From contig JAAZVX010000008.1 in NCBI GenBank assembly GCA_018623095.1, forward strand, positions 1-32,501: a DNA stretch of 32,501 nt, given 5' to 3'. Below are positions 22,399 to 25,750 of this stretch, piece after piece. The notes under the pieces are model-generated. The model was not told where the DNA came from and made no database searches. It was given only the letters and a program-made list of their open reading frames with translations. The position numbers and the translations under genes were made by a program. The number at the start of each line of letters is the position of its first letter. Position 1 is the first letter of the stretch. The stretch comes from Marinobacterium sp. (GTDB lineage: Bacteria; Pseudomonadota; Gammaproteobacteria; Pseudomonadales; Balneatricaceae).

Positions 22399-23211
22399 AT
22401 GCCTGATTTGCAAACGCTAACCGATTCCTACCTTGTCCCATGGTCCATCAACATTGCCACAGCACTCGCCATTTTTGTGGTGGGGCGTTGGCTAGTTAAA
22501 TTTGTGACTCGACTGCTTGAAAGGGGACTACACAGAACCTCAATGGACAACATGCTGGTCAACTTTGTCCGTTCCGTGATCAGTATTCTGTTAACTCTTC
22601 TGGTCGTTGTCGCGGCATTGGGTCAACTGGGCGTGGATACGACTTCTCTTATCGCGCTGGTCGGTGCAGCAGGTTTGGCTATAGGCCTAGCGTTGCAGGA
22701 CTCTTTGAAGAACTTTGCTGCGGGGGTCTTGCTGATATTCTTTCGTCCGTTTAAAGAGGGTGACTTTGTTGAAGTAGCAGGCATATCTGGTGTTGCTGAA
22801 GAGATAACCATTTTTAACACCGTGATGCGTACCGGTGATAATCGCGAGGTTATTGTCCCTAATGGATCGATCTATTCAGGAATCATTACCAACTACAATC
22901 GTCGGCCGACTCGCCGTATCGATATGATTTTTGGTATCGGTTATGACGATGATCTGAGAAGAGCTAAGCAGATTCTTAACGAAGTAGTGACAGCGGATGA
23001 TCGAGTTTTGCAGGACCCAGCCCCAACCATCGCAGTGTCAGAACTGGCCGAAAGTAGTGTCAACTTCATTGTGCGTCCTTGGGTTAAAACGGAAGAGTAC
23101 TGGAATGTTCGCTGGGCGCTGACTGAAGAGGTTAAAGTGCGCTTCGATGCTGAAGGTATATCAATCCCATTCCCACAAATGGATGTTCATTTTAAAAAAG
23201 AGGAGGCCTGA
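22399..23211 (+). CDS. mscS: Small-conductance mechanosensitive channel (MscS family)
   Basis: LVGAAGLAIGLALQDSLKNFAAGVLLIFFRPFKEGDFVEVAGISGVAEEI pore/TM3 and beta-domain motifs. Confidence 0.95.
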   Translation: MPDLQTLTDSYLVPWSINIATALAIFVVGRWLVKFVTRLLERGLHRTSMDNMLVNFVRSVISILLTLLVVVAALGQLGVDTTSLIALVGAAGLAIGLALQDSLKNFAAGVLLIFFRPFKEGDFVEVAGISGVAEEITIFNTVMRTGDNREVIVPNGSIYSGIITNYNRRPTRRIDMIFGIGYDDDLRRAKQILNEVVTADDRVLQDPAPTIAVSELAESSVNFIVRPWVKTEEYWNVRWALTEEVKVRFDAEGISIPFPQMDVHFKKEEA

Positions 23212-23220
23212 GCCTCCTCT
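23193..23220 (-). terminator. Terminator of the minus-strand SSF gene, embedded in the 3' end of mscS
   Basis: Minus strand agaggaggc-tcag-gcctcctct-tttttaaaa; 9-bp perfect stem followed by T-tract. Confidence 0.8.
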
Positions 23221-23240: not shown

Positions 23241-25400
23241 CTAACTGTCATCGGTTAAATGCCCTAAACGAGCTTTAAGTGTCTGGTTCTCGTGGGTAAG
23301 CTTCTGTATCTCTAAACGGTGCCCATGTATCACTTCGTACTGTCGATCGACTTTATCCTCTAATATTTTATTCGCATTTTTTAGCTTGGCTAACTCGTTG
23401 CTGAGCTGTTCGTTGTTGTCCTGAAGCGACTCAAACAGTGGATTGTGTTCGGCTTCTGAACTGCTCAGTTTTAATTCGCTTGCGATGTGCGAAAAGAGTG
23501 CTTTAAGATCAGCCGACTCTCTGTCTGAATAGCGAATAGACTCTTCAATTGCAGAGTGTGCGCCCGCAGCACCGATAGAGCCCGCCAGACGTTGCTCGAG
23601 CAGGCGGTGAAACTCCATTAACTCTACAATGGTGAAATGAGTACGAGCCCCCAACTGCAGATCCGTTAGAATACTGCCCAGTACTTGATCCGCAGCATCG
23701 GTACTTAAAAAGCGATTAAGAAGGAGTTCGGCCTCTTGGGTTTTGGGTTCTCTCTCAATGTACGCTTCAAGGCCCGTAGGGCGGGCATTGCGGTATCGAT
23801 CCGTTAATACTTCATTGGTCGCGTTAAATAGCTCGTCTGTCTGGGCTCTCTCAACTTTGCGAGGTTTGTAAAGCGTGCTGCCAACAACATACAGAGTAAT
23901 GTTGAAAACGAGTGACCAGAATACGCCGTGAGCTAGTGGCGGTAAGAACTCGAATCCAAACAGTGCATTAGGGCGAAGCCATTGATGGCCAAAAAGGCCT
24001 TCAGACATAACGCTGTCATCGATCCACCCTTCACCGACCATCGGAGGCAGCACCAGTGTGAAGCCCCACAGTATAAAGCCGGACAGTAGCCCCAGAGCCG
24101 CACCTAAGCTATTGCCGTTGCGCCAAAATAGACCGATTAACCCCGCTGGCGCTAATTGAAGTACCGCGGCGAAAGATATCAAACCCAGTGCAACCAGCAG
24201 GTAAGGCGTATCAAGTTGATTAGCAAACAGGTGGGCAATGAGTGCAATGCCTAGAATGAGTATCCAGCGAAGATGAAGTATTGAAGCGCCCAAGTTGAGA
24301 TCAGGCTTAAATCGACGCCATACAGGTATCACCAAGTGGTTTGATGTCATGGTTGCTAGAGTAATGAGCGTAACGATCACCATTCCCGTCGCGGCGGCAA
24401 AGCCACCTAAGTAAGCCACCAGTGCCATCAATTCACTGTTGGCAAACTTGGGTATCAGTAGAACGAACTGATCGCCTGAGCTTTTTGGAAGCCCGAGCAA
24501 CAGGCCTGCCAGTGCAATAGGAATGACAAACAGGTTGATGGCCAGAGTGTAGATTGGGAATAGCGTCAGAGCGCTCTTGATGTGTGCGGTGCCAGGGTTT
24601 TCAACCACTGTGACATGAAACTGTCTTGGCAACATTAAAATGGCTGCAGCGCCTAGTATGATTAAGGCAATCCAAGTAAAGATGCTCTCAGCTCCACCGA
24701 AGCTGTAAACCGACGTTAAGTTGGCCTGTTCAGCCTGTTGAATCAGATCACCAAAGCCGTCAAACAGACCAAAGGTGACAAACAGGCCTAAGGCAATAAA
24801 GGCGAACAGCTTGACCAGACACTCGGCCGCTAACACAGCAATGATGCCCTGATGACGCTCGGTGGGATCGATCTTACGAGCACCAAAAATAATCGTGATG
24901 ACTGCAAGTGTCAGAGTGATGATGACGGCCGACCAACTCCCTTGGGCGGCCGAATCGTTAGTTAGAACCGCAAATGCACTGTTGATCGCACGAAGCTGAA
25001 GAACGATGTAAGGCAGTAACCCCAAAATAGCAATGATCGTTACTAATGCCGCAATCCGCTGAGATCGTCTGTAACGTGTTGATATCAAATCGGCAATGGA
25101 GGTTAAACGGAAACTCTCTTTGGCCAGAACCATCTTTTTGATCGCCTTGGCACCAAACAGAAGACCGAGAATCGCGCCGATGTAGATGGCAAAGAACTGG
25201 AGGCCATTTTCCAACGCGAAACCGACACTGCCATAAAAAGTCCAAGAGGTGAAAAAGACAGCCAAGGAGAGAGCATAAATAGGCCCTTGAAAGCCAAGCC
25301 CTGACTGTTTCCTTACCTTGCGCTCAACAACAATAGCCAAGGCGAATAGAAGTGCCATATAGAGCAGTGCAATAGCTGTGAGGCTGGCAGTAGAAAACAC
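23241..25400 (-). CDS. SSF/SLC5-type transporter fused to a STAC-like domain and C-terminal coiled coil; no histidine kinase domain
   Basis: 719 aa; multi-TM SSF N-terminus (AVFFTSWTFYGSVGFALENG, SIADLISTRY), then FTIVELMEFHRLLEQRLAGSIGAAGAHSAIEESI (STAC-like), then heptad-rich tail ending in a stop. GTG start. Confidence 0.85.
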   Translation of the reverse strand: MFSTASLTAIALLYMALLFALAIVVERKVRKQSGLGFQGPIYALSLAVFFTSWTFYGSVGFALENGLQFFAIYIGAILGLLFGAKAIKKMVLAKESFRLTSIADLISTRYRRSQRIAALVTIIAILGLLPYIVLQLRAINSAFAVLTNDSAAQGSWSAVIITLTLAVITIIFGARKIDPTERHQGIIAVLAAECLVKLFAFIALGLFVTFGLFDGFGDLIQQAEQANLTSVYSFGGAESIFTWIALIILGAAAILMLPRQFHVTVVENPGTAHIKSALTLFPIYTLAINLFVIPIALAGLLLGLPKSSGDQFVLLIPKFANSELMALVAYLGGFAAATGMVIVTLITLATMTSNHLVIPVWRRFKPDLNLGASILHLRWILILGIALIAHLFANQLDTPYLLVALGLISFAAVLQLAPAGLIGLFWRNGNSLGAALGLLSGFILWGFTLVLPPMVGEGWIDDSVMSEGLFGHQWLRPNALFGFEFLPPLAHGVFWSLVFNITLYVVGSTLYKPRKVERAQTDELFNATNEVLTDRYRNARPTGLEAYIEREPKTQEAELLLNRFLSTDAADQVLGSILTDLQLGARTHFTIVELMEFHRLLEQRLAGSIGAAGAHSAIEESIRYSDRESADLKALFSHIASELKLSSSEAEHNPLFESLQDNNEQLSNELAKLKNANKILEDKVDRQYEVIHGHRLEIQKLTHENQTLKARLGHLTDDS

Positions 25401-25402
25401 GA

Positions 25403-25750
25403 TCAGTGCTCCTTCTTCTCTGGGTTCGAACAGCCGCAGCTTTGCTCGGCAATTTCTTGTTGATAACTGGTCTCAAGTTCACTGCCTGGCACGGGATCTA
25501 TTCCTCCCTCTGAGCCCGGATGACAGCGTCCGATGCGTTTTAAGCCGAGCAGTGAGCCTTTAACGGGACCGTGAAGCTGAATTGCTTCGATCATATAGCT
25601 AGAGCAGGTTGGGTAGAATCGACAGCGCGGTCCCAGAATAGGACTGATGAACAGTTGATAAAACCGAACAATTAGAACGAGAAGTTGTTCAAAAAAATGT
25701 TTAACCACACCGGACTCCTTATTGACGCAATGGTAGTCCTTTAGCGCCAA
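25403..25750 (-). CDS. yidD: Membrane protein insertion efficiency factor YidD
   Basis: [59 protein letters not shown]. The true start is probably an internal GTG/ATG nearer ...VVKHFFEQ. Confidence 0.93.

Follow-up and report, generated by a model that had tools for sequence, protein, structure and literature searches.

Proteins in which an SLC5 transporter domain is joined to a STAC domain are almost invariably fused to two-component domains (PMC4834066), and SLC5-STAC modules with different output domains, GGDEF among them, have also been described (PMC5715377). The closest described systems are CbrA of Pseudomonas (SLC5-STAC-PAS-DHp-CA; PDB 10ed) and the CrbS/MxtR-type and RpuS-type hybrid kinases, which carry PAS, HisKA, HATPase and REC. 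In CbrA a lysine (K196) within the Na2 site has been proposed to act in proton coupling, and STAC inserts at the base of the transporter (PMC13022988). Histidine is still transported when the cytosolic domains of CbrA are removed (PMC7918813), and deletion of STAC from CbrA or CrbS resulted in no or weak phenotypes (PMC5715377, PMC7918813). The role of STAC is unsettled, and proteins that combine transport with signalling make it difficult to study either by itself. A split arrangement is found in UhpC-UhpB, a transporter-like sensor of MFS fold with an adjacent kinase gene.

The gene described here lies in a window (the whole stretch of DNA that was analysed) of 32,501 nucleotides from Marinobacterium sp. 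Its product shares with CbrA the SLC5 domain with the Na2-site lysine (K197 for K196) and a STAC domain past a linker, but lacks PAS, HisKA and HATPase and has a conserved C-terminal coil instead. The same module is present in the CrbS/MxtR-type and RpuS-type kinases (the genome's own paralogue, of 1306 aa, is 36-38% identical), whereas the window protein ends past the coil. A split-sensor reading would liken it to UhpC-UhpB, where a transporter-like receptor works with a separate kinase, but the window protein is of the SLC5 type and has no adjacent partner gene.

Results and Discussion

Gene and immediate setting

The following features were located:
23241..25400 (-): kinase-less SLC5-STAC-coiled-coil protein, 719 aa, GTG start
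23868..25400 (-): SLC5 domain (13-TM, LeuT-fold), residues ~1-511, including K197, the counterpart of CbrA K196 (PMC13022988)
23463..23783 (-): STAC domain, residues ~540-646, motif LAGSIGAAGAH at 605-615 (PMC4834066)
23259..23420 (-): coiled coil at the C-terminus, spanning residues 661-714, with its a/d core and a conserved b/e face (Y688, F/H692, R695, Q699)
23199..23220 (no strand): terminator-like hairpin of 9 pairs, common to both convergent genes
25403..25750 (-): yidD, separated by 2 nt from the SLC5-STAC gene on its upstream side; given for context, with no part in the proposed mechanism
22399..23211 (+): convergently oriented gene for an mscS-type channel; likewise given for context

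The SLC5-STAC gene starts 2 nt past the yidD stop, and the two are probably co-transcribed. yidD is a frequent neighbour in relatives and adjoins the SLC5-STAC gene in several other genera. Its usual setting is rnpA-yidC, from which the yidD of the window (25403-25750, minus strand) lies away. A CbrX-like peptide was not seen upstream of the window gene, where yidD is found in its place. At the other end, the convergent mscS gene stops at 23211, leaving a gap of 29 bp, and the hairpin at 23199-23220 is flanked by T-runs on both strands. The original prediction, made from the window sequence alone, had described just this ending, a stop followed within 30 bp by convergent mscS and a terminator.

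Domain architecture

The protein had been taken for the membrane half of a CbrA-like sensor, an SSF/SLC5 domain followed by STAC, and the comparisons below agree with this assignment. A phmmer search against PDB matched the cryo-EM chain of Pseudomonas CbrA (10ed_A) to residues 2-454 (E 5.7e-57), and a profile of the family found CbrA chain 10ed at E 1.1e-96. The AF2 model (pLDDT 80) comprises an SLC5 fold, short STAC helices (550-646) and a single long helix (654-718), and its best Foldseek matches were SGLT2, NIS, CHT1 and DUR3, all SLC5-type. The count of 13 transmembrane helices is taken from this model and from homology to CbrA. The fold match, together with the alignment of K197 with 10ed, identifies the LeuT-type fold with a defined Na2 site that characterises SLC5/SSS transporters.

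Profile-profile comparison between the STAC of the window family and CbrA-class STAC domains gave a probability of 93% (pairwise E 3.4e-7) and put LAGSIGAAGAH on LSGxxGPxxA. The CbrA-class profile in turn matched 10ed residues 517-601 (E 1.1e-27), while a mixed STAC profile (A6) searched directly against PDB found the CbrA chain weakly (E 1.4), ranked under unrelated helical proteins. LGPx(x)A is the motif that STAC domains share (PMC4834066); the window protein has IGAAGA at this place in a four-helix domain, as is typical of SLC5/STAC kinases. On the strength of the first two comparisons we assign segment 540-646 as STAC, as had been predicted for the segment past the transmembrane region.

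Pfam and NCBIfam searches of the 719-aa protein detected no HisKA, HATPase or PAS and returned weak coiled-coil matches only. The HisKA and HATPase pair that marks SLC5/STAC histidine kinases such as CbrA and CrbS is absent, and the three downstream frames contain no kinase remnant, in line with the claim that no kinase is encoded behind the gene. The domain search suggested as a check thus confirmed the missing kinase; its other half failed with Pfam, since SSF gave no hit to the window protein even at E <= 10 and STAC was matched by no Pfam model, and both domains were identified through CbrA in PDB and through profile-profile comparison instead. A plain Pfam search would therefore miss SLC5 and STAC alike. 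Proteins of this kind may be poorly annotated.

Distribution and selection

Homologues of equal length (~720-785 aa; counted at E <= 1e-125) occur in 88 of 117 genomes searched from the organism's own family and in 11 of its 16 genera, including Marinobacterium and Nitrincola. Some genomes encode a second kinase-less copy with 39-44% identity. The kinase-less protein is absent from five genera of the family, so the gene is dispensable. Outside the family, no intact kinase-less form was found among the matches listed when the order, class and phylum were sampled, a scope within which rare kinase-less forms may still occur elsewhere. These matches had reading frames of ~890 aa or more, a length compatible with kinases, save three shorter ones (G782, G231 and G693), which were rejected as frame-split or contig-end cases. 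In G231 (g30), an SLC5-STAC-PAS hybrid kinase (L178:846-4785) is apparently broken by a frameshift, its two frames overlapping.

Comparison of the window gene with two close relatives (93% identity) gave dN/dS values of 0.035-0.039 for SLC5, 0.005-0.008 for STAC and 0.02-0.05 for the tail, ratios that are approximate with dS > 1. These values indicate that all three parts are under strong purifying selection. The original prediction had named a strain-specific truncation or a sequencing error as what would undo it; the survey of equal-length homologues, with relatives in 11 genera, and the purifying selection rule this out. The related view, that a kinase-bearing gene has decayed here or was misassembled, could point to the frame-split and contig-end cases in other families (G231, G782, G693) and to G053, a genome of the own family with internal stops in the gene. 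We consider it highly improbable, given that length is conserved across 11 genera, that dN/dS is well under 1, that the tail is conserved and that no remnant lies downstream.

The lysine K197 is present in all 109 aligned SLC5-STAC proteins, and nearly all kinase-less ones retain the (F/Y)TSW pocket pattern. At pocket position 73, L018, L057, L058 and L093-L099 carry Asp/Glu where others have Tyr, which suggests a different substrate for these copies. Most of these proteins are the second kinase-less copy of their genome, but G008 has L018 alone.

Ancestry and loss of the kinase

In a tree of 109 SLC5-STAC sequences (632 columns; quick search, SH-aLRT support without bootstraps, some long branches), the 47 kinase-less proteins group in a single clade (SH-aLRT 99) that branches from within the kinase-bearing ones, and from this nesting it follows that the kinase was lost within the family. 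Presence or absence of the kinase changes three times in all on the tree. In the sister group, L085 and L086 (genus g13) have the same module at ~40% identity followed by a coil, GAF, PAS, HisKA and HATPase, so that the kinase is present in them. Two further members of the sister group in the same g13 gene setting, L087:1555-4317 (+) and L089:2075-4702 (-), stop past the GAF region with no kinase behind; GAF is clear in L089, and in L087 no Pfam model scores, its GAF region being degenerate. Judged from gene setting and domain content, these two represent a further kinase loss in g13, independent of the 47-protein clade. The next branch out holds SLC5-STAC-coil-kinase proteins (L049, L084, L088, L090). 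At L084:1469-1753 (+), an ORF of 94 aa with two hydrophobic stretches and no Pfam match abuts the start of the SLC5-STAC kinase gene, a layout that resembles the CbrX hairpin peptide upstream of CbrA.

The coiled-coil tail

A heptad-rich tail past STAC was part of the original prediction, and the long helix at 654-718 of the AF2 model is matched by a heptad bias above that of shuffled sequences in 25 of 25 homologues tested (p <= 0.005). Residues 661-714, a coil of 54 residues, align without gaps in all 47 kinase-less proteins, with the preceding linker varying in length. With V684 set as position a, hydrophobic residues predominate at a and d, and this a/d heptad core, as expected of a parallel dimeric coiled coil, is kept across relatives. 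Positions a, b, d, e and g are conserved and c and f are free, b and e matching the core in conservation; R695 (e) and Q699 (b) are invariant in the 47 proteins, and position 705 (a) is Asn in 31 of them. Searched against 23 genomes, the tail profile matched only kinase-less SLC5-STAC proteins. The pattern is as expected of a dimer core with a second contact face, whatever that face may contact.

We favour, at a probability of roughly one half, a dimeric proton-coupled SLC5 transporter or receptor in which STAC would serve as reading element and the second face of the coil as docking site. Its ancestor would have been an SLC5-STAC histidine kinase that lost the kinase in an ancestor within the family, retaining the proton-coupled SLC5 transporter/receptor and STAC, and a lineage-specific C-terminal coil would have taken over dimerisation and docking from the kinase. 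Binding of substrate and proton would move SLC5, STAC would read this movement, the coil would hold a parallel dimer, and the second face (E/D685, Y688, F692, R695, Q699) would be offered to a cytoplasmic partner, with output by docking and not by an attached kinase. The architecture, the single-clade ancestry, the purifying selection, the conserved lysine and pocket pattern and the gapless two-faced tail support this reading; transport, dimerisation, docking and a partner, whatever its identity, are what it predicts. Against it, the b/e face could pack on the protein's own STAC domain or join a higher-order homo-bundle, and five genera of the family do without the gene. More tentatively, the protein may be a family-wide split transceptor that signals in trans through the docking face of the coil, to a partner that is possibly no histidine kinase.

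The main competing explanation is a plain regulated transporter, in which STAC gates from below and the coil only holds the dimer, with no signalling. It is in keeping with the retained proton-coupling lysine and pocket pattern, and transport by CbrA needs no kinase domain (PMC7918813). Since the STAC of CbrA sits in the transporter base and CbrA lacking the cytosolic domains transports, docking and plain transport are both reasonable readings. However, a coil that only dimerises has no obvious need for the invariant b/e residues R695 and Q699 of the 47 proteins, and SLC5-STAC of CbrA alone gave no growth on histidine (PMC13022988), although that result concerns signalling as much as transport. 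We regard a plain transporter as possible, but the less probable of the two.

Search for a partner

The genes around the kinase-less gene are mostly housekeeping (yidD, phoH, mqo, mscS and a TIGR04211-like SH3 protein, in some genomes also a CBS-PAS-GGDEF-EAL protein). Conserved neighbourhood yielded no partner gene, and no cognate response regulator was present among the window neighbours examined. The CBS-PAS-GGDEF-EAL protein was rejected as obligate partner, being absent from the genus of the window and present in genomes without the kinase-less protein. A homologous tail was not found on any kinase or other protein at E <= 0.001 in the 23 genomes, and the kinase with a matching coiled coil that had been envisaged did not emerge. 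Separate kinases are plentiful, as shown by 25 HATPase matches in the window's genome and 32 in the single-contig relative G001. None of the separate kinases of the genome could be tied to the kinase-less protein by neighbourhood, tail profile or the candidates examined.

Two of these candidates are soluble coiled-coil kinases of the window's genome that seem to have their own sensors and were therefore dismissed as dedicated partners. At L156:1489-2977 a small coiled-coil histidine kinase overlaps an H-NOX-looking gene, and at L160:117-2897 a hybrid kinase lies past a FIST-like protein and near a LuxR-type regulator, all of these names being given by eye. The CrbS-like paralogue does not fit as dedicated partner either, as it also occurs in genomes without the kinase-less protein.

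That neither conserved neighbourhood nor a shared tail nor co-occurrence, tested for one neighbour, revealed a partner counts against the preferred docking reading and is what a plain transporter would lead one to expect. What remains of the original prediction is the SLC5-STAC-coil architecture without a kinase; its suggestion of docking to a separate kinase fits the second face of the coil, though no partner was found. The protein might also act as modulator of kinase-bearing paralogues, either by pairing with the CrbS-like hybrid kinase (1306 aa) in heterodimers or by competing with it for substrate. That kinase is the only other SLC5-STAC protein found in the genome, and SLC5 and STAC are common to both. 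We consider this role unlikely, since the hybrid kinase is also found in genomes without the kinase-less protein (G006, G009, G018, G021), the two are just 38% identical and the tail profile matches nothing in the hybrid kinase.

Conclusions

A conserved kinase-less SLC5-STAC family was not described in the literature searched, the founding 2015 STAC paper being outside its scope. The organism's family provides an evolutionary series from kinase-bearing to kinase-less proteins with more than one loss. With the kinase removed naturally and SLC5 and STAC under very strong selection, the functions of transport and STAC become open to tests free of a fused kinase; cultured strains exist for such species (Nitrincola, Marinobacterium), and the conserved face of the tail is a defined bait for partners. 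The family offers a natural system in which to examine how transporters communicate with signalling proteins.
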